Shown here: piece after piece, positions 11,983 to 64,000 of the stretch
Layout of the letters: each line of letters starts with the position of its first letter
How positions within the stretch are numbered: position 1 is the stretch's first letter
NCBI GenBank assembly: GCA_038380435.1
Contig: JAWZYU010000028.1
Coordinates: 43,087,095 to 43,151,094 of the forward strand
Direction: 5' to 3'
Origin: Ryuthela nishihirai
Lineage: Eukaryota > Arthropoda > Arachnida > Araneae > Heptathelidae
DNA: 64,000 bases
The notes under the pieces: generated by a model
Told to the model about the DNA's origin: nothing
Database searches by the model: none
What the model saw: the letters and a program-made list of their open reading frames with translations, nothing else
Position numbers and translations under genes: made by a program

Positions 11983-12345
11983 TCAGGTGTGAGATAAAAG
12001 GGAATGGTGTGGTAATTTTTTTACGAGAGTTTGTGTTGGTGGTACAGGTAAGGAAGTGTTTTGTTGTGATTGTGCATTGTAGAGCAGTATCTGTGAGCTC
12101 AGAAATGTGTGGAATGAAGATTTTTGGTAATTTATGGGGTGGGCAGAATCCTTAGGGATGAAGTTAGGGACAAAAGAAGGTTTTTGGTGTATTGAGGTTT
12201 TGACAGATTGGGGCGTGCCTCTGGATAGGACACCAAGGAAATTTATTGATCCATTTTTCTCTGCTTCGTGTGTAAATTGAATGGTTGGGAAAACAGTACC
12301 GAGTTCCGCTAGTAATTTAACCAGCTGTTTTTGGTTTCCAGCCAA
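11983..12345 (-). pseudogene. Penelope-like reverse transcriptase thumb fragment
   Basis: 120-aa open piece starting after the YMDD box. It has LVKLLAELGTVFPTIQFTHE and NGSINFLGV, matching the thumb region in which families read Ile-Gln-Phe-Thr and Asn-Phe-Leu-Asp. It ends 5 bases before the endonuclease piece, in another frame. Confidence 0.72.
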
Positions 12346-12925
12346 GATTAAAAAATATCATCCATGTATCTTTTCTAAAGTATAGGGGTCCATGTCTTCT
12401 GTATGTCTGAGTATAACATCTGCTAGAAATCCTGATAGGGGAGATCACATGGGGGACACCTGTTTGATAATAAATTTGCTGATTAACCTGGAAATAATTA
12501 TCGGTTGTGGCAAGGTCTAAAGCATCATGCATGCTAAAGTATTCAGTTGAGATGGGTCTTGCAGTTTCCAACCATTTGGTCTTTTTTAGTCTTATATTAG
12601 CATCCAAAACAGGTGTGTTGGGGTACAGGGCTATGACATCAAAAGAGTGGAAAGTATAATGGGATAAGATAGTAGTGTCATGCAAAATTTGGACAAATTC
12701 ATGGGCTGAGGTTATGGTATATTGGTTATTATCATACAGTAGTTTAAAGAAATTGTATAGGGCACGTTCTAAGTTGTAGGTTAGAGCTTTAGATTTATTA
12801 ACAAGGCAATGGAAAGGTCGGTTCTCCTTTTGTAATTTAATTTTGACAAATAGTTGGGGGGGGGGGTTTGGGATAAATGGGGGCTCTTCATGCTTTCCTA
12901 ATAGGGAGGTGCAGGAAGGGGTCAT
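12317..12925 (-). pseudogene. Penelope-like reverse transcriptase fragment
   Basis: 202-aa open piece. It contains the reverse transcriptase fingers and the first catalytic Asp in FDVIALYPNTP, then NYFQVNQQIYYQTGVP. The next box (Met-Gly-Ser-Pro-Leu-Ser in the family) is scrambled by small indels, and the YMDD box lies in another frame at the end of the piece. It is clearly of this family but broken. Confidence 0.78.
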
Positions 12926-13479
12926 TCTTTAAATATTCAGCTTAAGCATCATTTTAGGTAGTGACTCAGAATCAATAGATGTGGCTTTAATTTCTTTTAA
13001 TGCTTGCTTTATTTTCGTGTTGTATTCTTCATTAATGAGAACCAATTGGTCATTTTATCTGCCAGCAAAGTTTTAATGTTATTTTTCTTCTTAATACACT
13101 TTAGAGATTTTTGTTGCAGTTTTGTTACTTGTTTACTGTGCATAATTTATAGATCAAAACAGTTTAAACCAATATTTGTCTTTCTGTATATCCGGTATGG
13201 GATTGATTACTTGTTTGATGTGTGGGATGACATTGTGCAAAGATGGCACGGGTGAAGGTATGGCAAATTTAGGGCCTCTTTCCAACAGTTCCATTTCTTC
13301 TTTGCTTAGATCTCAACTTTTCCACTAATTACAGTGATATAGAGAAATTCAATAATTTTTTATCAACACTGACTTAAACATCTGTCTTTTAGATTCTAAT
13401 TTTTTCGGTTAGGAGTGTGAGCTAGTGTTGACATAAACCTAGCAACTTAGCACTATGGAAAAATTATTTTACCTTTAAA

Positions 13480-21814: not shown

Positions 21815-22049
21815 TTGTCTTCCATTAAAAATGGAATATTACAAGAAAAAATCAGAGCTAAACTGGCCACAATCATGAGTTAGTTTTAGATTTGTTCAAA
21901 GCGCTTAAAGATCCAAAATTTGTACCTACTAAACAGGCTTTAGACTTAGCCACACAATTATTAAAAAGACTTTACCAAAAAGAAGATAATAATGAATCAA
22001 TGGAAGCTTCACAAGACCAAGAATTAATAATAGTTGAAAATCAAAAAAT

Positions 22050-22370
22050 TTGACAATGGAGGAAGAACTTGATTTAATTTTGAAAAACGCAGCTGAACCT
22101 TCAACTCCAAAAGAATCTGAGATTTATAGCAAACTTAAACAAGAATTTTTGCCTTTCAGAAATACTGGAAAACGAACAAGTAATCTTGATGACCTGTACA
22201 ATGCACTTTCCTCCATAAAACCAACTTCAACTTCTAATGAAAGAACATTTTCAATAAGTGGCAGCTTCTGTACTACAATCAGATCGAGACTTGCTGACAA
22301 GTCTCTTTATTCGTTAGTATTTCTCAAATATTTCTACCTGAAGACCAAAAAAGCAATTGAATTTAAATAA
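22050..22370 (+). pseudogene. hAT transposase C-terminal dimerisation domain
   Basis: 106-aa open frame. Residues 60-100 contain TSTSNERTFSISGSF and RSRLADKSLYSLVFLKYF, the signature of the hAT C-terminal domain (Ser-x-x-Glu-Arg-x-Phe-Ser, then Arg-Leu and a Leu-Phe-Leu-Lys helix). The domain looks intact although upstream parts are broken. Confidence 0.82.
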
Positions 22371-33997: not shown

Positions 33998-34399
33998 CTA
34001 CGGAGGTCCAACCAGACCGTGCAGTTTAATTCTCCAAGCATATCTGTCCTGAGCTACATCTGCTGCATCCAGCCACTGTACACCAATTCTAATAAGGTCT
34101 TCTTTGACATTGTCAGCCCACCGCATCCTAGGTTTCCCCCTCCTTCTGAGGCCTCTAGGCACACCGTTCATAACCCTATTCGCCAATCTATAATTATCCA
34201 TACGGGCAACATGGCCAAACCAGCGGAGTCTCTCTCTGCACAATATGCTGCTTAAAGGAGGTTGCAAACTCCTTTGCCTAACCTCATCATTAGTTACAAA
34301 GTTGAATCTTCTAATGCCCAAGATACTACATAAGCATCTAGGATCAAAAGCATTGTTTCCTGTTATCTTGTTTGCACAGTGTCCAAGTTTCACTACCAT
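33998..34399 (-). CDS. LINE C-terminal region
   Basis: 133-aa open frame. Seen: RLRWFGHVARMDNYRLANRV and KPRMRWADNVKEDL, the C-terminal signature of RTE-like reverse transcriptase proteins. The function of the region is not well known; it may bind the RNA 3' end. Its first residues are read from a shifted frame, and the true junction lies near 34400. Confidence 0.8.
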   Translation of the reverse strand: MVVKLGHCANKITGNNAFDPRCLCSILGIRRFNFVTNDEVRQRSLQPPLSSILCRERLRWFGHVARMDNYRLANRVMNGVPRGLRRRGKPRMRWADNVKEDLIRIGVQWLDAADVAQDRYAWRIKLHGLVGPP

Positions 34400-34425
34400 A
34401 ACTAACCCTAGAAAGAACCAAACTA

Positions 34426-35025
34426 TTACTCTCTCATTTTAGTCTTTAGGTGTATACGCCTATTTCTCCACAATCTCCATAGATTCTTAAAAGTCCCGGC
34501 AGCAATCCCTATTCGTCTGTTAATCTCATGCCGCTCATCACCAGTATCTGTTACGTAGCTCCCAAGGTAATTAAACTGTGACACCTGCTCAAGACTGCAA
34601 CCATTCAGATTAACTGAATCACAGCCTGCCTGACCAATTTTCATCACTTTAGTTTTCTCTCTGTTTATAACCAAACCTACTCTACTACCAGTCTCATCAA
34701 CAGCTCGAATGAAAGAGTTCATCTCATCAACATCATTTGCCAAAAGGGCTAAATCATCAGCATAATCTAAATCAGAAATTTTCGTATCTCCAGCCCATTG
34801 AAGGCCAAAAGCTTTCCCTTGAAGTGAATTTCGCATAACATAATCAACAACCAAACTAAAGAGAAAGGGAGACAAAATGCACCCTTGTCGAACACCAGAC
34901 GTAATGCTAAACCAATTGCTACAAGACTTACCAACTCTCACACATGACTCAGTGTTATTATAGAGAGCTTTCATTATGTAAACTAACTTGTCTGGTATAC
35001 CATATGATCCCACAATCAACCACAA
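34426..35025 (-). CDS. LINE reverse transcriptase, catalytic part
   Basis: 199-aa open frame that continues the preceding one after a frameshift. Seen: SGVRQGCILSPFLFSLVVDY and then DLDYADDLALLAND, the catalytic Tyr-Ala-Asp-Asp box, followed by GLVINREKTKVM and QFNYLGSYVTDTGD of the thumb. It ends at a premature stop after KTKMRE, and the protein resumes in another frame at 34399. The YADD box is intact. Confidence 0.87.
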   Translation of the reverse strand: MWLIVGSYGIPDKLVYIMKALYNNTESCVRVGKSCSNWFSITSGVRQGCILSPFLFSLVVDYVMRNSLQGKAFGLQWAGDTKISDLDYADDLALLANDVDEMNSFIRAVDETGSRVGLVINREKTKVMKIGQAGCDSVNLNGCSLEQVSQFNYLGSYVTDTGDERHEINRRIGIAAGTFKNLWRLWRNRRIHLKTKMRE

Positions 35026-36173
35026 ATTATGACGATCAACAGAGTCGAAAGCCTTTCTGAAATCAACAAGCTAGCAACCAAAGGTTTCTGAAACTCTAAA
35101 CATTTCTCAAGAATCTGCCTAAGTGAAAATATCTGATCAACACATCCACTACCACTTCTGAATCCACATTGCTCATCACGCAATTGCCTGTCAACCACAT
35201 TCTTAATTCTATCGAGCACAATCATGGAAAGAACTTTACCTGGAACAGAGAGTAGGCTGATACCTCTATAGTTATCACAAGAACTGTGATCACCTTTTTT
35301 GAAAATAGGGATAATAATAGCTCTGGTAAAATCCTTAGGAACCATGTCTTTATCATAAAAGTTATTCAAAATTTCAGTCATCCAAATGGTAACTGAAACA
35401 TTCCCAGCTCTAAACATTTCCGTAGTAATTTCATCCACCCCTGGGGATTTATGTAGTTTAAGTTTAGAAACAGCCAAAATAACTTCAGATTGTGTTATAG
35501 GGACAATATGAAAGCCACCAATGCATCTATCATCATTGCAAACAATGGGAGTAGAACTAACTACATTGTTTAGAACATCACTGAAATGCTCAGCCCATCT
35601 AGCCATGACAGAATCCTCACCTTCTATAACCTTACCTTGTTTATCCTTCAATCCCTGTATACCTGTTCGTTTTCTGCCACACAAAACATTAACTATCTGG
35701 TACAGCTCTCTGCTGTTGTGCTGTCTAACTGCTTCCTCAGCTTTGTCAGCCAGGCCATCAAGCCAAAGATTCTTATCAGTAGCTAACTGATCCTTTATAC
35801 GTTTATTAAGTTCTTTGTAATGCTTTCTATTAGGACTAGTAGGGTACTGATTAAGGACATTCCTGCCGTTCCTTCTTTCTGAAATAAGCTCAAGTGCCTT
35901 ATCACTTAAATAATTCTGCCTCCTCTGCTCCTTTTTCCCTAGAAGAGTACTGTTAGTTTCCAAAAAAGCCTGTTTAAAATGGCCCCATTCTTCCTCAACT
36001 TCAGTATTAAGCAAACTATGACTGTCATAATGACTAAGTAACCTATCATGGTAAGCTTTAGCTATAACTGGGTCTTTCAGAGCTTCAGTATGAAAGGTAA
36101 ATTTTTTAACCCTAGCACAACTTTTTAAGTTTAAGTTGCAAGACACTTTTAACAAGGTAATGGTCAGATCCAA
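35016..36173 (-). CDS. LINE reverse transcriptase, N-terminal part
   Basis: 385-aa open frame in the LINE. Seen: a Lys/Glu-rich linker, then reverse transcriptase boxes including SPGVDEITTEMF, IIPIFKKGDHSSCDNYRGIS and LRDEQCGFRSGSGCVDQIF. The frame is lost just before the first catalytic Asp region (expected Asp-Phe-x-Lys-Ala-Phe), where the open reading shifts to the next frame at 35025. This single-base break makes the present copy a pseudogene in practice. Confidence 0.85.
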   Translation of the reverse strand: MDLTITLLKVSCNLNLKSCARVKKFTFHTEALKDPVIAKAYHDRLLSHYDSHSLLNTEVEEEWGHFKQAFLETNSTLLGKKEQRRQNYLSDKALELISERRNGRNVLNQYPTSPNRKHYKELNKRIKDQLATDKNLWLDGLADKAEEAVRQHNSRELYQIVNVLCGRKRTGIQGLKDKQGKVIEGEDSVMARWAEHFSDVLNNVVSSTPIVCNDDRCIGGFHIVPITQSEVILAVSKLKLHKSPGVDEITTEMFRAGNVSVTIWMTEILNNFYDKDMVPKDFTRAIIIPIFKKGDHSSCDNYRGISLLSVPGKVLSMIVLDRIKNVVDRQLRDEQCGFRSGSGCVDQIFSLRQILEKCLEFQKPLVASLLISERLSTLLIVIICG

Positions 36174-37161
36174 TTTCAGCTCCCCTATATGCCCTGGTAT
36201 TTCTAACAGAACTAGCCCATTTGCTGTTAATTAATATATAATCAATTATATTCCTATGCAGCCCATCAGGTGAAACCCATGTGTATTTATGTATGTCGCG
36301 GTGTTTGTAATATGTGTTAGTTATTCTGAAACCATTGAGTTTACTTACCTGTAGGAAACGTTGCCCATTGCCATTGCAGCTACCAATACCAAAAGGGCCA
36401 ATTACTCCTCCCCAAAGGTCAGAGTCGGTACCAACTTTGGCATTGAAGTCACCAAGAACAAGGGTAATATCTCCTTTCTTGACAGAATTCAAAATATCCT
36501 GAAGTTGTCCGTAAAACCTATCCTTCTCATCCTCATCAGAATCCTCAGTGGGGGCATAACAGCAGATAACATTCAAGTCTTTAATGCTTGTCTGAAATTT
36601 TGCTGTAAGAAACCTTTCATTAATGCATTCATATCCTAGAAGAGCATCACTAGCATGTCTGCTGAGCAGCAGACCCACGCCTTGGTGATGCTTTCCATCC
36701 TCCCTCCCTGTAAAGAGAAATTTAATGTTATTTTTAAGTATCTCACCTTTACCTGTCCATCTGGTCTCTTGCAAGCCTAGAATATCTAGGTTATAGCGCT
36801 GGAATTCCTGCATGAGGACATCAAGAGAATAATCTCTATGTAATGTCCTCACATTCCACGTTCCTGCAGAGAGAAAATGATTAGTAGGATTTTTAAAGAA
36901 ATTAGGTTTATTGAGATTGGTAGGGCCAACAATATCAAACAGCCCCCTGATCGCAGGCATGGGGCAAAGACCTGTTCCTCCTCCGCTAAAGGCTGAAGTC
37001 ACCGATGCTGGTAGGAACTTCAGGCACCATCTTTTCAAGTGGACTTTTTCAAGAGCCATATGGCCTGCCTGAGACACATTACTCCAGTTTAGGCTTGACG
37101 ATGCCCAAGTAGCAAAGTAAGGTTCAGGTACCTGCGATGGCCTCTGATTAGGATTATCCAC
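36112..37161 (-). CDS. LINE apurinic-type endonuclease domain
   Basis: 349-aa open frame. Seen: GTWNVRTLHRDYS near residue 95, then LDILGLQETRW (catalytic Glu), YAPTED, LVLGDFNAKVGTD (Asp and Asn), YTWVSPDG, IDYILIN and a final GSDHYLV (catalytic Asp-His). Known: these are the conserved boxes of the exonuclease-endonuclease-phosphatase fold that nicks target DNA for target-primed reverse transcription. All catalytic boxes are present. It overlaps the next frame by 62 bases, so one indel separates endonuclease from reverse transcriptase, or the proteins are joined by a frameshift. Confidence 0.88.
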   Translation of the reverse strand: MDNPNQRPSQVPEPYFATWASSSLNWSNVSQAGHMALEKVHLKRWCLKFLPASVTSAFSGGGTGLCPMPAIRGLFDIVGPTNLNKPNFFKNPTNHFLSAGTWNVRTLHRDYSLDVLMQEFQRYNLDILGLQETRWTGKGEILKNNIKFLFTGREDGKHHQGVGLLLSRHASDALLGYECINERFLTAKFQTSIKDLNVICCYAPTEDSDEDEKDRFYGQLQDILNSVKKGDITLVLGDFNAKVGTDSDLWGGVIGPFGIGSCNGNGQRFLQVSKLNGFRITNTYYKHRDIHKYTWVSPDGLHRNIIDYILINSKWASSVRNTRAYRGAEIGSDHYLVKSVLQLKLKKLC

Positions 37162-38341
37162 CAGCTGATATAAGGTATCCCATGCCTCTGTTCACTTAGA
37201 GCTGGCAACCCAGAAGCAAACAGAAAACAGCATTGATGCTTCATATTGCATTCAACAGCAGCAGACTCTCCCTCAACAGAGGCCCACTAGTGCAGCAATT
37301 CCAGGATCCATAATCAAGCTCAAATCCATAAACAAGTCGTCTAGTAGGTATAGATGGTCAGGACCCTGTGAAGTTGACCACTCCTCAGCAGGGTTGAAAA
37401 AGAAGAAAAAACTGGCCATTGATGACCAGATCAGTAGGCCATACTGAACTGGCAGCCCTCCCCTTCCATTCCCTTCCAAAAGAGAATATCTCTTTTGAAA
37501 GGTACTAACGGCCTGCACCACGAGAAGGCGGGGTCGGACAATAGGTGCTAGACCTGGCCGGTTCTGTGCATCACAGTACATTATTAAGTAATAAATTATT
37601 CAAGCCAGTTTCTCTAATCATCCATAGTAATGTATTTCAGTTAATAGTAAATAGTACATATCTGTTGAAAAAAAAAGTATGTTTTGAGCCAGCAAAAGTT
37701 GTCTAATCCTTAAAGTGTCAGGTTTCCCCACAAGGCATGCAACGTGGCAAAGATAATTTTTAACCTTTTTTCCGCAGAAAATTACAACTTTGGAGCATTA
37801 TCTTGCACTGACTGACAGATATATATTTTACATACCAAATGAAAAAGCATTTCATTCTGAACAATAGAATAACAAATTCAAATTAAAATGAAGGCTACCT
37901 ATGCCTAATTAGAAAAAAAGGGTAACTCCCTTTTGAAACTTTTAAGAGTTAAGAATTCAGATATCATTAGAATTTGACCTATTGTATTTTGTTTTTCAAT
38001 ATTTAGGATAAAAGAGAAATTTTTTAGTGTGTTTTTCAATGTATATTCTCCCATCTTCTTGCTAACAGTTATACAGTAAAATGTGGATATAATGAATGCC
38101 AGAATAATGAAATATTCAGTATCATGAATTTTTTTTCCCAACCCAAGCCTATTTACTAATATCTTTATGTGAAATTGCTTAATTTTAACAAATACCATTG
38201 TAACAAAATAAAAATTTATCACAATGGGAAAAAAATAAGCAATATAACAAAATTTGTAAATAGATCCTTAAACAATAGGTAAAACATACATTTTTCCATC
38301 TTTATGTGCTTTGGTTTAAATGCAATGATTTAAATGCTGTG

Positions 38342-42247: not shown

Positions 42248-42704
42248 TGTTGCAAATTAAAATGGATGAGCACTGAGCATCAGTTAAAGTAAAAATATGT
42301 CAATGAAAATTACAATACAATGCAATTTATTACAAAAGCATGGATGAAATTATTTATAAACAAACTAAGTCAACTGGCATGAACCTCTGTAATAATAAAA
42401 GATAAACTTTCAGAAGAATCATTATCTCAATTCTACCAATACGATCCATACCAATAAACTAATCAACCTTTTGCACACTCACCGTATAAAATGTGTTTTC
42501 GCTTTTTACCCCCATCGTGCACATACTGAAACTAATGCCTACTTTCGGATATCCACAACTCCAACAATAATTCTATCCTTTCTGTTTTTTAGATCGGTTC
42601 TGTATTCCAATTCATTGGTTACATAATTCTCACACAGAAACATACGTGAGCATTCATGACACATTTATCATAAATTCACAGTAGCACGTTTATCTGTCGT
42701 AACA
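42248..42704 (-). repeat. 3' LTR of the old Gypsy
   Basis: On the + strand it begins TGTTGCAAATTAAAATGG and ends TGTCGTAACA. It is about 457 bp and roughly 90 percent similar by eye to the copy at 47703. The element's polypurine tract lies just to its right, at 42705-42720. Confidence 0.9.
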
Positions 42705-42719
42705 CTGCCCCCTCAGGTT

Positions 42720-43720
42720 TTGTTCATCCCGAACAATTCTGGATTCCAAAGCTTCTTCAGTTCTTTGATGAAACAGGGGGACACGATCCACATGAACCTC
42801 TTGCACTCTGTAGTTGGACGTCGACGAATGCGATACACCATGTCATTAATCCTGTTAACTACTGTATATGAACCTTCCCAAGGTTTCTGAAGTTTTGGAG
42901 AAAGTCTCTTCTTGCTATGTGAATTGTACAGCCAGACAAGACCTCCATGATTGAAAACAGTTCCATTTGTTTTACTGTCGTGTCTCGTTTTGGTTCTCTT
43001 GCTTGCTAAGTTGATGTTATGTCAGACGGAGTGATTGATTTCTTCTAGTTGTTGTTGTAATTCTTGTACGTATTGTGGAGTGGATATAGGCATTGCTTTG
43101 GGCCAACCATATAAAAGGTCACAGGTAAGATGTAACTTTCTTCCAAAGAGCATCATGGAAGGTGTCTGTCTAGTTATCTCGTGCACTGCTGTTCTGTATG
43201 CCAACAAAAGGAGTGGTATATGACGATCCCAGTCATGTTGATGGTCATCGACAAACAATGCTAGATGTTGTGCAATTGTCCTATTAAATCTCTCAACCAT
43301 ACCATCTGACTGAGAGTGTAGGAGAGTTGTTCTGGTTTTCTGAATGCCTAATAGTTGACATATGCCTTTAAACACATTAGATTCAAAATTCCATCGTTGG
43401 TCAGAGTGGAGTTGCAAAGGTACTCCATACCTACTAATCAAGTTATTTACTGTCATCTCTGCAACTGTTGTTGCTTTCTGATCATGGATGTGATAGACCT
43501 CAGGCTACTTTGTGAAATAATCCATTACCACTAATAAATAGTGATTTCCATCATCAGTCCTAGGAAACGGACCCATTACATCAATAGCTATTCTCTCAAA
43601 AGAGACACCAATGTTATATGTCTGCAGCCTACCCTGACTCCTAGTCTTAGGGCCTTTCTTTGCTGCACAGGCTTCACATTGCCTACATCATCTTTCAACA
43701 TCTACCCTACTTTTCAGCCA
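42720..43720 (-). pseudogene. Gypsy integrase, partly open
   Basis: Seen on the minus strand: a CRQCEACAAKKGP part of the HHCC zinc site near 43690-43650. The catalytic core follows, with its longest open piece at 43456-43022 containing LQLHSDQ and MVERFNRT, the second Asp and the Glu of the DDE triad. The C-terminus near 42840-42760 reads MVYRIRRRP and is almost identical in bases to the end of the young element's ORF. A stop at 43508 and further breaks inactivate it. Confidence 0.85.
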
Positions 43721-43894
43721 ATGAAATCATTCCCTGGCTTTAGCTAATGTCTTATTAACACTGAAGTGTGTCATCCAGTGACACTATCATGCACATTTTT
43801 CATCACTAGTTCCACTCGGGAGTGAGGAAGGATTAATTGCCAATGGATCAGCCGTCCAGTGGGATTCTCCCATCTTCTGTATAATACACTGTCT

Positions 43895-43978
43895 TTTCCT
43901 TCTAAGGAGTCCTTCTAAGGAGTAGGACTCCTTAGAAGTTTCACTTCTAAGGAGTCCTACTCCTTAGAAGTGAAACTG
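43895..43978. repeat. Short inverted duplications inside Gypsy pol
   Basis: CTTCTAAGGAGT and its complement alternate four times or more around AGTTTCACTTCTAAGG, forming two nested hairpins. The run interrupts the reading frame of the element. Confidence 0.8.
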
Positions 43979-44299
43979 TACTGGGCACACTAGGAAGAAG
44001 AAGGTTTCCTACTGTACCCAGTAACTTTTGGTAGTTGAACTATACCTCGAGATTTGCTCCCAGTTAGGTCTCATACCAGATTTTTCAATCAAATCTATTA
44101 TTGACCTTATATATTCATCGTCTAGTTGGGCCTTTCTAATTTCTATTAGACTTCAGATGTTAGGAGTATCACTGTTCGTTTGTGTTGATGTTATTTGTCT
44201 TATAGGCTCTTTAGTACCAAACCTCAATTCTGCATTATAGCAATGCTTACAGTTGTCAATATATGGAAGTCTGGAAAAGGCATCTGCATTCTTATGCAT

Positions 44300-46429
44300 T
44301 TTGCCACTTTGATGCTCGATGGAGAAATTGTACTCTTGTAACTGCTGTATTCACCTAGCGATTTGTCCATCGGGATTTTTAAAGTTTAGTAACCACCTGA
44401 GTGCAGCATGATCAGTGCATATAAAAAATTTCTGGCCATGGAGATAATAATGAAAATGTTCTATTGCTTTTACTATTGCTAACAGTTCTTTTCATGTGAC
44501 ACAATAATTTCATTCTGGTTTGGATATAGTTTTGCTAAAGTATGCAGTAACCTTTTCTTGTCTGTCTTGTTGTTGTGAAAGTACAGCACCAACTCCTATG
44601 TTACTTGCATCAATATCTATTATGAACTGTTTTCCAGTTTGTGGATATGCTAACACTGAGGCTGTGAAAAGAGCCTGTTTCAACTGTTGGAAGGCTACTT
44701 CTCATTTGGTGGTCCATATGAACTGCTGACCCTCCTCTGTCAGACGATCTGGTTTACTTGGATGACATCATCATTCTTGGAAAAATAATGGAGTGCCTTA
44801 CCGTATGATGTAATGGCCTTGTGCTGTTGGAGAAACCCTTTACAAATTTTCTATAGGTGCAAAGTCCAATAAAACTTCGAAGTTGATGAACATTTTGGGG
44901 AGGCCAGTCTCTTATAGCTTCTATCTTACTAGGATCAGTCTTAATCTCTGATGTAGTGATGACATGACCAGGGTAATGAACTTCTTGCTGGAACAGTTTA
45001 TACTTAGTCGGTCCCAGTTTTAGCTTGGCTGTCCTAAGTTTTTCACACTTGACAAAGATTTCTCAAATGTTTTTCAAAAGTCTTTCGAAGAACGATGATG
45101 TCGTCCGAAGTAAACCAGGCAGACCTTCCAAGACAAACTTTTGAGCACCGATTCTATTAGTCGTTCAAATGTTGCAGGTGTGTTGCAAAGTCCAAATGGC
45201 ATCACTTTAAACTGCCAAAGTCAATTTCCTGTAGTGAAAGTTGTTTTCTCGCGGTCTTTAGGATGTATTCCAACTTGCCAATAGTCACTCTTCAAGTCTA
45301 ATGTCGAGAGCCATTTTGACCCAGATAGAGTGTCCAGTGTTATCATCAATCCTGGGTAAGGGAAAGCAGTCTTTCTTTGTTATATCATTCAATCTGTGGT
45401 AATCCACACAAAATCGGGTAGATCCATCCTTTTTCTTGACAAGAACCACTGGTGATGTCCAGGGACTCTGTGATGGTTCAATAATGTCTTGAGCTTCCAC
45501 GTCCCTTATGAGTTGTTCTGTCTCCTACTGTTTTGCCAATGGAAGCCTTCTTGCTGGTAGATGACTGGAGGAGAATCACCAGTGTTAATCTTATGTTCTG
45601 TCAGGTTAGTACGGCCATAATCATTTGATGTAGCAGAAAAAATGTCAGAAAACTCAATAGGTTCTCGGCCTTAGCAGCTTGGTCTTCAGTTAATATTATT
45701 GTTTCTCTCTATAAGTCAGTAAGATGAGATGGGATGTCTGTATGGTGTTGGTTTGAGTCAGTAACTTCTATTTTTCTTATACTTGTTACCCAGGTAACAG
45801 GTTCCCATATTGCTAATTCTTCACCCTTTTCGAATATTCTATTGGATTTGTTACAATTCATCACTCTGATAGGAATCTGTTCTTTATCATTCTGACTAAA
45901 GTCCTTGCAACCAGGATACCATGAGCCAAAGCTCCTTTACCAGAGGCATCAGTGACTGTCAATCGGAAGGCCCCAGAAGTCTGCCCGATGTCCAAATACT
46001 ATAATTTCACTTTGTGCTGGGATTTCTGTTTCTTCCATCACTAATATTGTGGTCACACTTGATAAAAGGATGAGATGTTCAGCTAAGCAGAGGGATCTCT
46101 TCTGTCTTGTAGATGAGTAGGCTGTCACTGGGTCTAATGCTGAATCCATGCTTCTTTAGGAATCTAGGCCTAATATGCATTTATCGTAGATGTCAGCGAT
46201 GTAAATAGGATGATGTACCAGACAGCTGCCAACTCTGATGTTGAGTTCTATCTTTCCATGAACTTTAGCACGATCTCCAGTGGCTGTAGGGTTATATTAG
46301 ACTGTGTAGCATTCTAGTTTGGGTGAGGTTTTATATTCTTTATCATGTCTGTTCTGAGTTAAGTTACATTTGCACCAGTGACTACTATCATATGGCAAGG
46401 CACTCCATTCATGGTTCCATCAGCCATTA
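44300..46429 (-). pseudogene. Gypsy protease, reverse transcriptase and RNase H, broken
   Basis: Seen on the minus strand: a protease-like VTGANVT near 46375. The start of reverse transcriptase at 45500-45285 ([20 protein letters not shown]) is the best preserved piece. The active-site YFDD segment near 45110 carries a one-base insertion. RNase H-like sequence lies around 44730-44380 (EEGQQFIWT, then ICTDHAALRWLL). Known: this order and these motifs are those of Ty3/Gypsy pol. Multiple stops and frameshifts are present. Confidence 0.82.
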
Positions 46430-47690
46430 TTCTCACCATGTAGTGCTGAAATGTGGGTGACTTCCCTTGGGGCCAGCCAATCAACAGCCAGCCTTTGCCT
46501 TTCACATTGCTTGAGCTTTGTACCCACCATTTTTTGCAGTTGGCTCAAATGTGTCCAGTCTTGCCACAATTCCAACATTGAAGGTCTGTGGAAGTTTTTG
46601 AAGAGGAACCTTTTATCTCTTTCAAAACGGATAATATGACTTTGGTTAGTTCTTGCATTTTACTGTCCTTTTCTACAGTTTCTTCTGCATTCACAAATCT
46701 CACTGTGCGTTTGTTCGCTCAGGAGGATTGCCTGGAGCACTCGTAATTCATTGCATGTACCATAGCTGACTTTAAGGTTCCACCTTCCAACATCCTCAGA
46801 GATCATTGAGTGTCAGGGTCAGCAATAGCATCAATAAATTGTAATTGAGCTAAGTTATCTTGAATTTCTGGTGGACAGTTACTGTAAGCCATTCTAGCTA
46901 GATGCTCAATATCACTAGCTAGTTTTTGCAAAATTTCACCACTCTTCTGCATACGATGTTTAAATTGAGTCATATAGTATTGTTTTAAATAACTATTGCT
47001 GAGCCTGAGTTCTAATGTAGAAACCCGACTTTGATAATCAAGTCATTTTTCTTCTGGAAAAGACTGTAAAACTTCTGCGGCAGAAATTCGTAAGGAACCC
47101 ACAAGAAAATTGGCCTTCTGGAGTTCATTCCACTCATTAGCTCTAGTGATAACTTTAAACTGTGTTTTAAATACTGTCCAAGATGATTGACCATCATATG
47201 TAGAAGGTTTAGTTGCATTCTAGCGATATGTGTAGAAACATTATTGTCACAAGAAGAAGGTAACCTTTTGTTTCCTGAAATCTGAAACTGACGTTCACAA
47301 TCAGTTTTTATACTTTTAATTTGATGCTTAACACTATCAAGTGTTGTATTAAAATCACTAGTGATTTTATTAACATTACACCAACCCCATCAATATCATT
47401 TTTACATTGTCAATTTCAACCTTTAAATTATCACACTACCTCTTCAGTTTGGTTTTAATGTCCTTACACTGATCAGTGATTTTACCAATTTGAAAAGCTA
47501 CTTCAGCTCTCAACTCAACTCTCAATTTGTTACCTCGTGCAGCCATTTGGCTTTCAAGTCATCACTTTGTCTAGCAAGGTCATCAAATTTACTGCTTTGA
47601 GCAGCTAATATCACCTTTAATATCAGTCATCAGCTTTACTAACTCATCCATTCTTTTAGTAAAAAGGCATTCAAAATAATATCTACACTA
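46430..47690 (-). pseudogene. Gypsy gag, broken
   Basis: On the minus strand the reading starts near 47655 with a MDELVKL motif identical to that of the young element. It continues through a coiled-coil-like stretch (GKITDQCKDIKTKLKR) and a capsid-like region (47218-47012, FLWVPYEFLPQKFYS in the longest open piece). It ends with a zinc knuckle CWNCGKTGHI near 46580-46550; its final Cys lies two residues beyond a stop. Several stops and frameshifts make it nonfunctional. Confidence 0.8.
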
Positions 47691-47702
47691 CTGGCATCAA
47701 TT

Positions 47703-48158
47703 TGTTGCAAATTAAAATGGATGAGCACTGAGCATCAGTTGAAGTAAAAATATGTCAATGAAAATTACAATACAATGCAATTTATTACAAAAGCATGGAT
47801 GAAATTATAAACAAACTAGGTCAACCAGCACGAAACTCTATAATAATGCAAAGATAAACTTTCAGAAGAATCGTATCTCAATTCTACCATCACGATCCAT
47901 GCTAATAAACCAATCAACCTTCCGCGCACTCACCATATAAAATGCTTCTTCACTTTTTACACCCATCACATACATACTGAAACTAAGTATGCCTACTTTC
48001 AGATATCCACAACTCCAACAACAATTCTATCCTTTCTAGTTTTCAGATTGGTTCTGTATTTCAATTTGTTGGTTACATAATTCTCATGCAGAAGCATATG
48101 CGAGCATTCTTGACACATTTATCATAAATTCATTGTAGCACGTTCATCTGTCATAACA
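47703..48158 (-). repeat. 5' LTR of the old Gypsy
   Basis: 456-bp copy of the LTR, ending TGTCATAACA on the + strand and followed by GTAT. Just inside it, on the minus strand, lies a mutated leucine-type primer site (TTGATGCCAGTAGTG). Confidence 0.9.
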
Positions 48159-56640: not shown

Positions 56641-57745
56641 TTTAACTCTTGTAAGTTACATGGTTGAGCTACCACAGATCAGATATGCTGTTCCAACACA
56701 AACCACAGATGCTCGAGTAGATTAATGTCTGGGGAATTTGGAGGCCAGGGCAATATCTGGAAGTCTTCCTCATGTTTTGGGAACCATTCTTGAACAATCT
56801 GGGCATTGTGGCATGGCACATTATCCTGCTGTAAAAAGGCACTACTAGAGGAGAATGCCATTACCATGAAATGATGTACCTGGTCTGCAATGATGTTTAA
56901 GTAGGTGGTAGACATCATAGTTTCCTGCACATGAATGACTGGACCCAGGGTTTCCCAGCAGAACATTGCCTAAAGCATTGCACTTCCTCCACTGGCTGTT
57001 TTCATTCCATGGTGCATCCTGGTGCCAACACTTCTCCAGGTGAATGATGCATACATACCTGGCCGTCTATGAGGTGCAACAGGAAACGAGCTTCATTGAA
57101 CCAGATGACCTTCTTCCAATCATTCAAGGTCCAGTTTTGATGCTCCATGCCATTGTAGACACTTTAAATGGTGAACCAAGGTTAGCATGGGCACTCAGAG
57201 CAGCCTGCTGCTACGCAGCCCCATTTTCAGCAAGGTTTGATGTTCTGTGTGTTGTGACATATTACTCCCATTACCAGCATTCAAATTACAGGTAAGTTGA
57301 GCCACAGTATCCCTTCTGTTGGCTCATACCATACAGGAAAATCTTCACTCACCTCTAGCATTGATGAGCCATGGTCGGCCCACAAGTGTAGTGGTTTGTG
57401 ATTTTTACCTCCTTGGACAATTTTTTGAAGGTAATAACCACTGCTGACCGTGAACACTCCACAAGCCTTGCTGTTTTGGAAATGCCTGACCCAGTTGTCT
57501 GGCCATTACAATTTGGCCTTTGTCAAATTCATTTAATTCCGCTGCCTTTCCCATCTGAAGAAGTAGACACCAGAATTGAACACCTGATAATGAGCTCTGT
57601 TAATAGTGTTACTATTAACAGAGCTCAGTATCAGGTGTTACTATACAATTTCTTGAACTTCATACGTGTCGTTTACCTGCAGTTACTTCAATTTTCATAA
57701 AAACACACTGGTCATAATGTTTTGGCCATTCTGTGTATGTGTGTA
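56640..57745 (-). pseudogene. Tc1-like element inserted in reverse among Tc1 pieces
   Basis: Minus strand; starts at a terminal repeat ACACAGAATGGCCAAAACAT (complement near 57725). WTLNDWKKVIWFNEARFLLH near 57140-57080 and FLQQDNVPCHNAQ, then WPPNSPDINLLEHLW within 56966-56679, are Tc1 boxes. Asn replaces the first catalytic Asp. A 66-bp hairpin lies at 57579-57644. Confidence 0.82.
57579..57644. repeat. Hairpin of about 30-bp arms
   Basis: AACACCTGATAATGAGCTCT through TTAATAGT is followed, after GTT, by an almost perfect complement ending CAGTATCAGGTGTT. It lies inside the minus-strand Tc1. Confidence 0.85.
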
Positions 57746-58441: not shown

Positions 58442-58541
58442 GTAAATTTTCTTGTCAAAAATTATATTTTTTGTTTTCTGCATGTAAGAGTTGCAATAAC
58501 GTGTTTTTCCTGGTGTATTGTAATGCTAACTTTTGAAATAT

Positions 58542-59180
58542 TGTTACGACAGAAGAATCTGGCAACCGAAAGCAAAGTTTCAGCCAACGAATAAGAACTT
58601 TGGGAGAATTTGGAGAAGAAGAGTGGAGCGTTAACGGTCGTTGTATTGTAACGGTCGTTGTGTATTGTAACGGTCGGTGAGTTCGAAAATGGACGGTGAG
58701 CTGTTCTGAGACAGTGCGCGTAAGTATCAAGAAGTAACTTGATGTGTTGTGTATACGCGGAAGGATAAAAGTGGGATCTTTTATCGTTAAGTATCAAGAA
58801 GTAACTTGATGTGTTGTGTATACGCGGAAGTATAAAAGTGGGAACTTTTATGGCTAACTTCGAATGTCTACACGGACTGTCTTTTTGTTCGGCTAGTGTG
58901 TGAAAAGTTATTAGCACAGGACGAGAATTGGTTTACGAGTGAAGATCTTCGGGTGACCTGGTAAATCAAGTAAAAGGTAGTATTTAGTAAAATACACAGA
59001 GCTGATATTGTGTGCTCTACGCAGGAAGATTGATGACTTGTGCATGTTAATAGTTGATTTGTTAATAAGATACTTCATCCATATTTCCTTTGTAACAATT
59101 TACCTTGTATTGAATTTGGTTTTGAAATATAGCTTTTAATACTCACGCTCAGCGGCTATCCATTTTTGTGATCCGCAACA
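58542..59180 (+). repeat. 5' LTR of the thymidine phosphorylase element
   Basis: The 639-bp LTR is bounded by TG and CA. The first 80 bases contain a short repeat based on ACGGTCGTTGT and ACGGTCG. It looks identical along its length to 62079-62717; the antisense open frames of the two copies translate identically. Base composition is richer in CpG than the surrounding intron, another sign of youth. Confidence 0.95.
58722..58855 (+). promoter_or_regulatory. Duplicated promoter-like block in U3 of the 5' LTR
   Basis: Two direct copies of a 67-bp unit (58722-58788 and 58789-58855) each begin AAGTATCAAGAAGTAACTTG. Each ends with an A/T-rich core, GGATAAAAG in the first and GTATAAAAG in the second (near 58764 and 58830). 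The second is a good TATA box. Duplicated enhancer or promoter units are common in LTRs. The same pair occurs in the 3' LTR at 62259-62392. Confidence 0.6.
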
Positions 59181-59182
59181 TT

Positions 59183-59200
59183 TGGTGTCAGAAGTGGGAT
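59183..59200 (+). other. Primer-binding site, tRNA-Leu type
   Basis: TGGTGTCAGAAGTGGGAT begins two bases after the 5' LTR. It is complementary to the usual 3' end of many animal leucine tRNAs (CCCACTTCTGACA plus CCA). The old Gypsy has a related but mutated site just inside its 5' LTR. Confidence 0.75.
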
Positions 59201-59210
59201 AATTTATTGA

Positions 59211-62171
59211 ATGCCGTTAACTAGAAGTATGGATGAATTGGTAAAGTTGTTGAATGACATTAAAAGTCAAAATAATGATATGAAAGCCGAAATAGCGACA
59301 CAAAATAGTACATTGGATGAAATGATAGCCGCAATGGCCGCACAAAATAATGAGTTGAGGACTGAGATAGTTTCTCAAAAAGATGACTTGAAAGCCGAAA
59401 TGGCCGCACAAAATAATGAGTTGAGAACGGAGATAGTTTCTCAAAAAGATGATTTGAAAGCCGAAATAGCCGCACAAAATACTGAGATGAGAGCTGAAGT
59501 GGCTTCTCGAGTTGGTAAGATTATTGATCACTTCAAGGATCATAAAACCGAACTCAATAGACAATGCAATAGTTTAAATGTTGAATTTGTCAGTGAAAAA
59601 GATGATCTTGATAGTGTTAAGTTAGATTGTAAACATGGAAAAGAAAAAGAGAAAGGCAACGCATATAAAAATGTGGATCTGCTACTGGAAATCAAGAATT
59701 GTAGAGATAGCGCAGATGATGCCTTTGACCACGCAACTACTGGTAATGCATGGCAGAGTGTCTATGTCGCTGGTGACATGTCTAGGAACTGTGAAGAACA
59801 ATCACACAGATCAGAGAGCTGTGAGACTATACAGTACGCTTTGCACTTCAAAATACCTAGGTATACAAGTCTGGCACGATCTGAAGAGAGATCCACACGA
59901 AAGGTATTCTATTCCTCGCCGTCAGCAAAATGTGTCATGGACATTTATCGCAAAGGCAGAGTAACGAGTGGTAATGAGGGGGAACGAAACAGAGTTTACG
60001 TTTCGCAGAGTGGTCCGAGTAAAGAAGAGGCGTCCATTCATCATAGATACAAAGTGCCATTCGACGTTACTGGGGAAGTCGGAGAGATTTTTCCGAAACA
60101 TATAGCCACACTCGAATCGTTTATAGAAAGTGGGGATTTAAGGAAGAGGAATTCCGAAGAATGGCTTAGAAGCATAACAGGTAATGCTGGTAAAGGAGCT
60201 TCAGGCAGAGACAGTACTTCAAAGACTGACTTAGATATTCCTTTTTCTATGAGTAATAAATTGTGCTCGGATAACAGTAACTTTCTGGATGAAACTAAGC
60301 CTCAGAGTTACGATCAGAGAGAAGTGAAGCCCTCAGATAATCTCAACGTAGCCATGCTGAATTTCTTTTCTGAACAGTCAATGCGCAGATTTGGACATTA
60401 TAACCATTTAGATTATAAGGATATAGAAAAGTTTTATCACGACTACAAGAGCTCTAAAGTGGACAATATCATGTTACAGAACTCGTCGCTGATCTCCAGA
60501 ATGAACAATTTGGCAATCATGACTGATATTTCCCTGGCTAATTACAATGAGAGCTCCAAGAAAGTGAATTCCGAAGAAACAGCAACTATGACCTCCTCGG
60601 GTCATGTGTTTTGCTGGAGACCCGAGTGGCGCCATCGGATGGTAGATGAAAACAGCACAGGAGGTGTCGGCAACAAAGTGAGTCTTGTCTTGGCTCCTGC
60701 ACTTGCTGCTTTAGGTCTCAAGGTCCCTATGATCTCCGGTCGTGCTCTCCAATTGACGGGAGATACTCTGTACAAATTGGAATCCATCCCTGGCTTCACA
60801 GTCGACTGCACTAAAGATAAAATCGAGCAGATGATGGAAGACGTCGGATGCTGCATCGTAGGACAGACAGTGGAGCTGGTGCCAACAGATAAGGAGATTT
60901 ACCGCTGCAAGGATCTGACGGCTACCGTAGATAGCGTTCCTCTAATGAGATGCTCAATTGTGTCCAAAAAGCTGGCTGAAGGAGTGTGCGCTTTGGCTTA
61001 TGATGTTGAATTCGGAAAAGGAGCTATTGATCTCATCAGTACAGAAGACGCTGTTGATTTAGTTAAGAAAATGGTTGCAGCATCACAAGCTCGTGGAATG
61101 AAGAGTTCAGCTGTTATCAGCAACATGGATTCACTTCTTAAAAACTCTGTTGACAACTCTCTGGAAGTGATGGAAGCTGTTCAGTGTTTCCTTGGTAACG
61201 GATCCTTGGAACTGCAAGAGCTCGTCGAAGAGTTAGGAGGAGAACTTATGCGTTTGGTGAACATTGTGGATAATAGGGTAGATGAAGCATCACGTGTCTG
61301 CAAGGTTCTGCATAACGGCAATGCTTTGAACAAGTTTCGTAACATGTTAATAGAACAAGGAGTATCTGAAGATGTTGCAAGCTGGCTATGTGAAGGTAAA
61401 ACAGAAAAAATATTGCTAGCAGCCCGACACATCACTGATTTCATTTATACAGGAGAAACAGGTAAGGTTGTCGGATTAGAAGCTGCAGTTCTAGCAAGAG
61501 TATGGAAGGAGGAGATGGACCGAAGCGCTAAAAAGAATTATGGAGCTGATGTTATATTTGTGAAGCACCTTGGGGATCAAATTGAATCAGGTGAAATATG
61601 GCTGAAGGTTCATCACGACAGTTCTGAATTAAGTGAAAGTCAACTGACAAAAGGGTCAGACTGGAGGATGAAACTCCTCCCTAGATTTTATGTCACTAAT
61701 GACTTTCATTCCTTGTTACTGTTGATAGAAGTAAAAATCCAAAGAAGAAAACTTTCGACAAAGAAGAAAACTTTTTACAGGTTTTGCACGAAAACTCTTA
61801 GTCGATTCTTCTCCCTGCGGAGACATAAACGTGTTCACAAGGGCTATAGGCCTTACACGTATTATATTTGTGGACGAGGCTTCAGTCAGAAAAGAAATCT
61901 ACGTCATAATGAGATTCGCTTTCATTTTGACACAGACGTGGTATATCGCATTCGTCGACGTCCAGCTACAAAGTGCAAGGTGGTTCACGTGGATCGTTTG
62001 GCTCCGTTTCATCGAAGAACTGAAGAAGCTTTGGAATCCAGAATTGTTCGGGACGAACAAGACCTAGGAAGGGGGCAGTGTTACGACAGAAGAATCTGGC
62101 AACCGAAAGCAAAGTTTCAGCCAACGAATAAGAACTTTGGGAGAATTTGGAGAAGAAGAGTGGAGCGTTAA
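59211..62171 (+). CDS. Chimeric 986-aa ORF: Gag-like start, thymidine phosphorylase-like domain, zinc-finger remnant, integrase tail
   Basis: Seen: residues 1-140 match the Gag start of the Gypsy at 42-48 kb and contain tandem 22-residue units (from residue 42) typical of coiled coil. Residues about 140-455 are unrecognised, Ser/Lys/Asp-rich and without Cys-His knuckles. Residues about 457-818 follow thymidine phosphorylase from the STGGVG phosphate loop (482-487) through KVPMISG, KLESIPGF, CCIVGQ and TATVDS to the C-terminal domain. The family's N-terminal helical domain is missing. By E. coli numbering Lys84, His85 and Arg171 are replaced by Glu480, Asn481 and Lys567; Ser186 and Lys190 are kept (Ser582, Lys586). 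Residues 855-905 are two C2H2 fingers, each with its first Cys changed to Tyr (856, 884). Residues 909-946 are a Gypsy integrase end (VVYRIRRRP, VVHVDRLAPF). The last 30 residues read into the 3' LTR. Inference: a captured, intronless host sequence, probably inactive as an enzyme. Confidence 0.9.
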   Translation: MPLTRSMDELVKLLNDIKSQNNDMKAEIATQNSTLDEMIAAMAAQNNELRTEIVSQKDDLKAEMAAQNNELRTEIVSQKDDLKAEIAAQNTEMRAEVASRVGKIIDHFKDHKTELNRQCNSLNVEFVSEKDDLDSVKLDCKHGKEKEKGNAYKNVDLLLEIKNCRDSADDAFDHATTGNAWQSVYVAGDMSRNCEEQSHRSESCETIQYALHFKIPRYTSLARSEERSTRKVFYSSPSAKCVMDIYRKGRVTSGNEGERNRVYVSQSGPSKEEASIHHRYKVPFDVTGEVGEIFPKHIATLESFIESGDLRKRNSEEWLRSITGNAGKGASGRDSTSKTDLDIPFSMSNKLCSDNSNFLDETKPQSYDQREVKPSDNLNVAMLNFFSEQSMRRFGHYNHLDYKDIEKFYHDYKSSKVDNIMLQNSSLISRMNNLAIMTDISLANYNESSKKVNSEETATMTSSGHVFCWRPEWRHRMVDENSTGGVGNKVSLVLAPALAALGLKVPMISGRALQLTGDTLYKLESIPGFTVDCTKDKIEQMMEDVGCCIVGQTVELVPTDKEIYRCKDLTATVDSVPLMRCSIVSKKLAEGVCALAYDVEFGKGAIDLISTEDAVDLVKKMVAASQARGMKSSAVISNMDSLLKNSVDNSLEVMEAVQCFLGNGSLELQELVEELGGELMRLVNIVDNRVDEASRVCKVLHNGNALNKFRNMLIEQGVSEDVASWLCEGKTEKILLAARHITDFIYTGETGKVVGLEAAVLARVWKEEMDRSAKKNYGADVIFVKHLGDQIESGEIWLKVHHDSSELSESQLTKGSDWRMKLLPRFYVTNDFHSLLLLIEVKIQRRKLSTKKKTFYRFCTKTLSRFFSLRRHKRVHKGYRPYTYYICGRGFSQKRNLRHNEIRFHFDTDVVYRIRRRPATKCKVVHVDRLAPFHRRTEEALESRIVRDEQDLGRGQCYDRRIWQPKAKFQPTNKNFGRIWRRRVER
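62064..62078 (+). other. Polypurine tract of the thymidine phosphorylase element
   Basis: AGGAAGGGGGCAG directly precedes the TGTTACG start of the 3' LTR. The old Gypsy has GAGGGGGCAG in the same position (minus strand), which supports common descent. Confidence 0.7.
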
Positions 62172-62717
62172 CGGTCGTTGTATTGTAACGGTCGTTGTGT
62201 ATTGTAACGGTCGGTGAGTTCGAAAATGGACGGTGAGCTGTTCTGAGACAGTGCGCGTAAGTATCAAGAAGTAACTTGATGTGTTGTGTATACGCGGAAG
62301 GATAAAAGTGGGATCTTTTATCGTTAAGTATCAAGAAGTAACTTGATGTGTTGTGTATACGCGGAAGTATAAAAGTGGGAACTTTTATGGCTAACTTCGA
62401 ATGTCTACACGGACTGTCTTTTTGTTCGGCTAGTGTGTGAAAAGTTATTAGCACAGGACGAGAATTGGTTTACGAGTGAAGATCTTCGGGTGACCTGGTA
62501 AATCAAGTAAAAGGTAGTATTTAGTAAAATACACAGAGCTGATATTGTGTGCTCTACGCAGGAAGATTGATGACTTGTGCATGTTAATAGTTGATTTGTT
62601 AATAAGATACTTCATCCATATTTCCTTTGTAACAATTTACCTTGTATTGAATTTGGTTTTGAAATATAGCTTTTAATACTCACGCTCAGCGGCTATCCAT
62701 TTTTGTGATCCGCAACA
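62079..62717 (+). repeat. 3' LTR of the thymidine phosphorylase element
   Basis: Second 639-bp LTR, TGTTACG to GCAACA, followed by the 4-bp duplication ATAT. I found no difference from the 5' LTR by eye. The end of the 986-codon ORF overlaps its first 93 bases. Confidence 0.95.
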
Positions 62718-63010
62718 ATATATTGATTAGAAAATAATACATATTGAATATTAATTATTAACAATTAAGTTAAATTTCATGAATATCAAAAAGTACACAC
62801 CAAAAATGTAACTAAATTGAATTATGTGTTTTGTCTTAAATTTTGTATTTTATAAGACAGGAAACAATTTGTAATTACTTAATGGGTACTATAAATTATA
62901 TAGCTAAACCCATATTGTTTGAATGAGAAGGCTAATTCGTTTTCACCTGTAACTTATCAAGGCTCACAAAGTGCTAGGTTTTTTTATAATGTGTAAATTT
63001 ATTTTAATCC

Positions 63011-64000
63011 CTAATCATCATTATCATCCTCAAGCAGCCATGGGCTACAGAGGTCCAACCAGATCACACAATTTAGTTCTCCAAGCATATCTGTCCTGAT
63101 CTGCATCTGACCACTGAACATCAATTCTAACAGTCCTGTTTGACAGTGTCTGCCCATTTCATCCTAGGTCTCCCCCTCTTTCTGAGGCTTTTAGGCACAT
63201 TGTTCATAACCCTATATGCTATTCTATAGTTATGCATACAGGTAACTGGCCAAACCAACAGAGTCTCTGCACAATATGCTATTCAAAGGAGGTTGATGAT
63301 TCCTTTCCCTAACCTCATCATTACTTACAAATTTGAACCACCTAATGCCCAAGATACTGTGTAAGTATCTAGAATTAAAATCACGTTTCCTGTTAGCTTG
63401 TTTAAAAATGATCCAAGTTTCATTACCATAACTAGAAAGAACCCAACAATTATAATCTAATTTTAGTCTTTTAGGTGTATATGCCTATTTCTCTACACTC
63501 TCCATAGATTCTTAAAAGTCCCAGCAGCAAATCCCTATTCGTCTATTAATCTCATGCTGCACATCACCAGTATCTGTTACATAACTCCCAAAATAATTAA
63601 ACTGTGACACCTGCTCAAGACTGCAACCATTCAGATTAACTGAATCACAACCTGCCTGACCAATTTTCATCACTTTAGTTTCATCTCTGTTTATAGCCAA
63701 ACCTACTCTACTACCAGTTTCATCAACAGCTCTAATGAAAGAGTTCATCTCATCAACATCATTTGCCAAAAGGGCTAAATCATCAGCATAATCTAAATCA
63801 GAAATTTTCGTATCTCCAGTTCATTTAAGGCCAAAATCTTTCCCTTGCAGTGAATTTCACATAACATAAATCAATAACCAAACTAAAGAGAAAAGGAGAC
63901 AAAATGCACCCTTGTCAAACATCAGAAGTAATGCTAAACCAATTGCTACAAGTCTTACCAACTCTCACACACAACTCAGTGTTATTATAGAGAGCTCTGA
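63011..64000 (-). mobile_element. Second copy of the RTE-like LINE, 3' part, truncated by the window end
   Basis: On the + strand it begins with an (ATC)n-like tail and CCTCAAGCAGCCATGGGCTA, exactly as at 33967, and stays alignable to the first copy up to position 64000. The longest open piece is 63769-63512 (GLAINRDETKVMKIGQ). Many substitutions, small indels and lost stops relative to copy one show that it is older and inactive. Confidence 0.88.

Follow-up and report, generated by a model that had tools for sequence, protein, structure and literature searches.

We analysed a 64,000-nucleotide stretch of DNA from the spider Ryuthela nishihirai (assembly GCA_038380435.1, contig JAWZYU010000028.1, positions 43,087,095 to 43,151,094; hereafter the window) that contains a long terminal repeat (LTR) retrotransposon of Gypsy type. 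Its single open reading frame of 986 amino acids (aa) begins as Gypsy Gag, runs through a long segment homologous to thymidine phosphorylase (TP) and two decayed C2H2 zinc fingers, and finishes as the end of a Gypsy integrase (Table 1). The frame opens 30 base pairs (bp) past the 5′ LTR and closes inside the 3′ LTR. The two LTRs show no differences over 639 bp, and a 4-bp target site duplication, ATAT, stands on either side of the element; taken alone this duplication is weak evidence, because it is short and AT-rich. Intact LTRs around one 986-codon frame had been reported in a first-pass annotation of this DNA, and that description stands. As the LTRs are identical, we agree with the annotation that the element moved recently: the 95% upper bound on LTR divergence is about 0.5%, which places the last move less than roughly 0.2–0.8 million years ago at assumed substitution rates of 1e-8 to 2.8e-9.

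Table 1. Features of the hybrid element and of its relative in the window
Feature	Coordinates	Strand	Evidence or remarks
Left target site duplication copy, ATAT	58538–58541		Left flank ends ...AATAT
LTR element	58542–62717	+	4,176 bp, delimited by paired LTRs
5′ LTR, 639 bp	58542–59180	+	TG...CA ends; sequence comparison
Primer-binding site TGGTGTCAGAAGTGGGA	59183–59199	+	Reading of the sequence
Hybrid open reading frame, 986 aa	59211–62171	+	Single ATG-to-stop frame; stop within 3′ LTR
Gypsy Gag N terminus, aa 1–136	59211–59618	+	Coiled coil with 22-residue repeats; blastn/tblastn to relative at 47.8–47.4 kb
Foreign segment of unassigned origin, aa 137–452	59619–60566	+	No relatives found; codon-position bias
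TP-like segment, aa 453–814 (362 residues)	60567–61652	+	Pfam, NCBIfam, PDB, homolog profile
Short segment of unassigned origin, aa 815–856	61653–61778	+	Lies past the end of the TP profile match (aa 814)
Two decayed C2H2 zinc fingers, aa 857–905	61779–61925	+	Pfam and PDB
C terminus of Gypsy integrase, starting at aa 909	61935–62065	+	PF22938; 88% to relative
Polypurine tract AGGAAGGGGGCAG	62066–62078	+	Final nine bases common to Gypsy relative in window
3′ LTR, 639 bp	62079–62717	+	Same sequence as 5′ LTR
Right target site duplication copy, ATAT	62718–62721		Right flank opens ATATATT
Degraded Gypsy relative	42307–47815	−	Ordinary layout: gag, zinc knuckle, RNase H, integrase, polypurine tract, LTR parts

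The LTRs, the primer-binding site and the polypurine tract are all retained. We take the primer-binding site to be the complement of the 3′ end of tRNA-Leu; a tRNA scan of the window returned one tRNA-Val and is no help for this assignment. Each LTR also carries a 67-bp tandem duplication (58720–58853, with its counterpart in the 3′ LTR) with 4 mismatches between its copies, and a TATAAA at 58831 falls in the second copy; the arrangement resembles a doubled promoter region.

What is left of Gypsy and what replaced it

The limits of the foreign sequence were set by comparison with a related Gypsy element of full-length type, which is present in the window only as remains. This relative lies on the minus strand between about 47815 and 42307 or beyond and is broken by many stops and frameshifts. 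Two pieces of its RNase H were matched by Pfam (E = 1.4e-19 and 6.8e-13); pieces of its integrase core (E = 4e-5) and zinc knuckle (E = 0.0012) scored under the Pfam cut-offs. Its Gag core and reverse transcriptase could be made out only by eye; the pieces searched gave nothing in Pfam at 0.01. A search with its integrase returned no related locus in IMG/VR.

Between the LTR end and 59618, a span that takes in the primer-binding region and Gag up to that point, the element and the relative share 68–77% DNA identity, a value that varies with the stretch compared and the scoring. The 156 bp that start at 61935, cross the polypurine tract and enter the LTR are 88% identical. Homology stops at 59618 and restarts at 61935, and the 2,316 bp at 59619–61934 are therefore foreign to the relative. 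Of the Gypsy proteins, the first ~136 residues of Gag and the last ~48 codons of integrase remain (PF22938, E = 4.9e-6, 27 bits at a cut-off of 27). The annotated start as Gypsy Gag thus holds for this N-terminal part and not for the remainder of Gag, and the annotated end as Gypsy integrase for the C-terminal end only. Judged against the relative, the insert has replaced the greater part of gag and almost the whole of pol, from the Gag core through the integrase core. The earlier statement that pol was replaced is correct in that pol is nearly all gone, and too narrow in that most of gag went with it and the insert is not only TP. Pfam found no protease, reverse transcriptase, RNase H or integrase core in the 986-aa frame, as expected for a non-autonomous member.

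At the 3′ junction, where a template switch might have left microhomology, homology to the relative resumes at GAC. Because the 3′ end is 88% identical to the relative but the 5′ part only 68–77%, the two ends of the element may derive from different subfamilies and form a mosaic. Differences between the element and the relative fall at codon positions one to three as 6/3/5 in the integrase end and 9/11/18 in Gag; as a measure of selection these counts are too small, and the relative is a pseudogene. The coiled coil of Gag is lengthened by in-frame 66-nucleotide repeats (59316–59513).

At least two pieces of host type, TP and C2H2 zinc fingers, can be recognised in the insert by sequence comparison, together with others that we could not assign. 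For the zinc fingers, the Pfam model zf-H2C2_2 gave E = 2.3e-5 and 24.9 bits, under its curated cut-off of 40, and 171 PDB sequences matched at E = 1 or better. The best among the 60 listed (E = 2.3e-25) owes that value to several fingers of the same chain added together, no single stretch of which does better than E = 4.4e-4; a CTCF chain (5t0u_A) matched in one stretch at E = 3.5e-8. The first Cys of each finger is, by eye, a Tyr, and neither finger has the full two-Cys/two-His set of ligands.

The segment between Gag and TP was compared with several databases. With aa 127–395, nothing in Pfam passed its cut-off (a PANTS-like match reached E = 0.0017, 19.1 bits against 27) and PDB gave three matches at E = 0.39–1.5, none convincing. 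With aa 119–389, no protein was found at E = 0.1 among 378 candidates of ~150–475 aa, longer proteins not being candidates. Residues 396–452 were searched only as part of the whole frame. Codon-position composition over aa 127–380 points to coding in this frame (RNY of 0.33, against 0.16 and 0.17); the bias is weak over aa 381–450 (0.31, 0.25 and 0.22).

The thymidine phosphorylase segment

The annotation had counted about 360 residues of TP. We place the match at 362 residues: a profile built from 14 animal homologs scored 460.6 bits over aa 453–814 in one colinear stretch. A profile search that failed to match TP had been named as grounds for refuting the annotation; the search did give matches, to PF00591 at E = 7.6e-32 and the NCBIfam model for thymidine phosphorylase, NF004490, at 272.8 bits, above its cut-off of 269; matches to six other phosphorylase models of NCBIfam were under their cut-offs. 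Human TP in PDB matched at E = 3.2e-71. On these scores, the homology is far beyond chance. The segment was also annotated as intronless, and we find no intron-size insertion over its 1,086 bp; the source was therefore RNA or an intronless copy.

Of 7,995 candidates scored in a protein search with the TP segment, 3,568 reached E = 0.001 or better, and the ten best among the 120 listed of these include two horseshoe-crab and four spider TPs, at 44–49% identity. A phylogeny, also proposed by the annotation, was built from 38 rows, comprising the element and 37 proteins chosen from 124 that were found. The TP of the element is sister to nine sequences, including those of four spiders (support 96/90), within a chelicerate group of 14 that includes two horseshoe crabs (100/99). 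Its end branch is long (1.21, against a median of 0.4), one row, the cricket sequence P0123, is longer (1.29), and none was flagged as over-long; the exact position in the tree should be held loosely. We infer that the donor was an arachnid-type TP. A protein search with the full frame gave five TPs and no copy of the element among the 7,995 candidates scored, for which only proteins of ~540–1,725 aa were eligible. In IMG/VR, five stretches fitted a pattern for TP loci and none was confirmed.

Judged as an enzyme, the TP segment has decayed. At 62 core positions that are invariant in the 14 homologs of one alignment (A1), the element is changed at 16; when each homolog was judged against the other 13 in the same way, departures numbered 0–8 at 62–70 sites (P0123, 8/70; P0006, 7/69). 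A second set comprised 73 core positions at which 97% or more of 122 homologs agree (another 2, of 124 in all, were dropped for gaps). Here the element has 10 changes, P0017 has 8, P0012 has 5 and the median is 0, a comparison biased in favour of the homologs because they defined the set without the element. Nine of the element’s ten changed sites are fixed in all 122 homologs and the tenth in 121. Among residues that we take to belong to the active site of human TP (numbered from the PDB alignment), the equivalents of K115, H116 and R202 have become E, N and K, and those of S117, S217 and K221 are retained; all six are fixed in 122 of 122 homologs. P0017 is itself an arachnid-type TP whose changes include the STGGVG loop, and it may be a decayed TP paralog.

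The N-terminal domain of TP was not reported by the profile in aa 340–462 at E values up to 50, yet the profile reported 420 of 999 shuffled versions of that stretch. With fixed catalytic residues lost and this domain not detectable, the TP piece is very probably not an enzyme, a judgement that leans on what is known of the TP active site. The annotation’s point that the captured sequence was mobilised is sound for a TP-like sequence carried in an element that has moved, and probably does not extend to a working enzyme.

Two other assignments were rejected. MAFFT set aa 382–452 opposite the N-terminal domain, as if the copy of TP were near full-length; the profile test gave no support, and the 10 N-terminal sites (8 of them changed) were excluded, leaving the 62 core sites. 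The His of GRGLGHTGG was considered as the catalytic H116 and ruled out, as human numbering puts H116 in DKHSTGG; loss of the His in GHTGG means nothing because it varies in other TPs.

How the hybrid may have formed

We consider it highly likely that this is a non-autonomous Gypsy element made by LTR-mediated retroposition, through template switching onto packaged host mRNAs. Gypsy RNA would have been reverse-transcribed inside a virus-like particle until the enzyme switched template onto packaged, spliced host mRNAs, namely those of TP, of a C2H2 zinc-finger gene and probably of a third gene, and then switched back onto Gypsy RNA near the integrase end. Template switching between LTR-element RNA and packaged cellular mRNA, in theory several times over, has been described (PMC5408686). 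That model fits two or more unrelated, truncated and intron-free pieces lying between intact cis signals. Because the LTRs, primer-binding site and polypurine tract were kept, the hybrid RNA could be packaged, copied and integrated in trans, and because no polymerase or integrase core can be recognised in its product, the proteins would have come from related full-length elements.

Three observations weigh against template switching as the account of this element. Identical LTRs do not date the capture, as TP may have entered the element well before its most recent move. For about 316 residues of the insert, our searches gave no match. Finally, codon-position bias is absent over aa 839–908 (0.19, 0.23 and 0.14).

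The host sequence may not have been an ordinary TP. Possibly, and we put this forward tentatively, the donor was a host paralog of TP that had already diverged and lost catalysis, the element itself being one young insertion. Such a donor would suit the intact frame, the length of the TP end branch and the loss of conserved residues from other chelicerate-type TPs, such as P0017. However, that branch length is not unique, given the longer one of P0123 among the 37 other rows, and no chelicerate-type sequence above 49% identity appears among the 120 listed of 3,568 matches, in a database that may lack the host.

The frame contains no stop or frameshift despite relaxed constraint on TP. Selection within a mobile family may have kept it so, the decay may have taken place in a paralog of the host ahead of capture, or chance may account for it. 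We simulated random point mutations over aa 455–814 until 16 of the 62 invariant sites had changed; insertions and deletions were left out and would lower the figures. If all 16 changes were neutral, 9, 26, 44 and 55 of 2,000 runs acquired no stop at transition weights of 1, 2, 4 and 8, respectively (0.45–2.75%). If only 8 or only 4 of the 16 were neutral, 204 and 639 of 2,000 runs, respectively, remained open (weight 2). These runs replaced a first simulation over aa 455–838, which extended 24 codons beyond the TP match and gave 0.6–2.4%.

The small fraction of open runs under full neutrality would agree with an unlikely alternative, in which the hybrid frame comes from an older, multicopy non-autonomous family and selection keeps it open for the structural or packaging role of its protein, with the dead TP core as a folded module. 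The codon-position bias over aa 127–380 is in line with this, as is the sight of a recently moved element with so many invariant core sites changed, nine of them at positions without exception in the homologs. The simulation does not establish selection, because homologs too depart at up to 8 such sites (as P0123 and P0006 do) and some changes may be ordinary divergence; many more runs stay open once only 8 or 4 changes are neutral. The changes may also predate capture, in a host paralog, P0017 being nearly as altered at the 73 sites as the element. A single copy of the element was seen, and by eye the zinc fingers lack some of their metal ligands. We are more doubtful still that the 986-aa hybrid is the protein of a lasting non-autonomous family under selection, its dead TP core recruited as a structural or RNA-packaging module; if true, an enzyme would have been turned into part of the coat or control protein of a mobile element.

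An assembly chimera or cloning artefact that joined a Gypsy element to host cDNA is very improbable given the target duplication, the identical LTRs, the primer-binding site and polypurine tract, and one unbroken frame over the junctions. Equally hard to credit is a domesticated host gene that came by chance to lie between two LTRs: it would explain the long intact frame, but the frame opens 30 bp past one LTR, closes within the other and has Gypsy Gag at its start and Gypsy integrase at its end, TP has lost catalytic residues, and the identical LTRs imply a recent insertion.

Relation to known elements and other repeats in the window

Read as the product of template switching, the element is a clear and new instance of the uptake of host genes by jumping elements, a process already known. 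It provides an animal example of a young LTR element with more than one host-type gene piece in a single open frame and with its cis signals retained. Given the source genome, the switch points could be read, the capture dated apart from the last move, and passive carriage separated from selection.

The nearest kind of element is maize Bs1, also an LTR element that carries several host gene segments; reportedly, from the title of Elrouby and Bureau (2001), it has a hybrid open reading frame. Bs1 contains segments of three host genes, none of them a full-length open reading frame, in a chimeric gene (PMC13317346). Its host is a plant, its donors encode a membrane ATPase, a xylan endohydrolase and a β-1,3-glucanase, and it is reported to be transcribed and translated.

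The annotation had regarded gene capture by LTR elements as chiefly a matter of retroviral oncogenes and plants, which is too restrictive: animal LTR-mediated retroposition has already been published (PMC5408686, PMC8232201 and PMC9674220). In the metazoan retrocopies of Tan et al. (2016), as here, an intronless copy of a host mRNA lies between LTRs, and template switching is given as its cause (PMC5408686 and PMC8232201); against these we set, for the present element, at least two donor-type pieces in a single fused frame of 986 codons. Pxyfem of Plutella xylostella likewise joins a piece of animal mRNA to an LTR-retrotransposon gag, for which a template switch was proposed (PMC9674220). Its authors did not find LTRs, whereas here both are intact and identical, and Pxyfem makes silencing RNAs. 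LTR elements of bdelloid rotifers have also acquired enzyme-like genes, in the form of an extra enzymatic ORF3 encoding a GDSL esterase/lipase or a DEDDy exonuclease (PMC5408684); these elements retain gag and pol, with ORF3 as an addition, whereas here gag and pol sequence was replaced and the captured piece looks inactive. Compared with animal TPs (the TYMP family), the segment shares its colinear residues and its chelicerate grouping, and differs in having no N-terminal domain that we could detect and in the changed equivalents of K115, H116 and R202. We found no TP captured by an LTR element in literature searched by title and the opening of the abstract, with subscription papers mostly outside the search; this fits the annotation’s statement that it knew of no such case in an animal Gypsy, without proving it.

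Several other repeats occur in the window. A non-LTR retrotransposon at 33998–37191 (−) has endonuclease and reverse transcriptase frames (PF03372 and PF00078), and by eye a frame beside the hybrid element (63512–63748, −) looks like a truncated relative. A hAT transposase C-terminal dimerisation region lies at 22038–22370 (+; PF05699, E = 1.4e-4). Frames at 11983–12928 (−) resemble by eye a Penelope-type reverse transcriptase, and Pfam gave nothing for them at 0.01. Rfam reported no family at its gathering score. An inverted repeat at 57579–57639 has 29-nucleotide arms separated by 3 nucleotides, in a hairpin-like arrangement.

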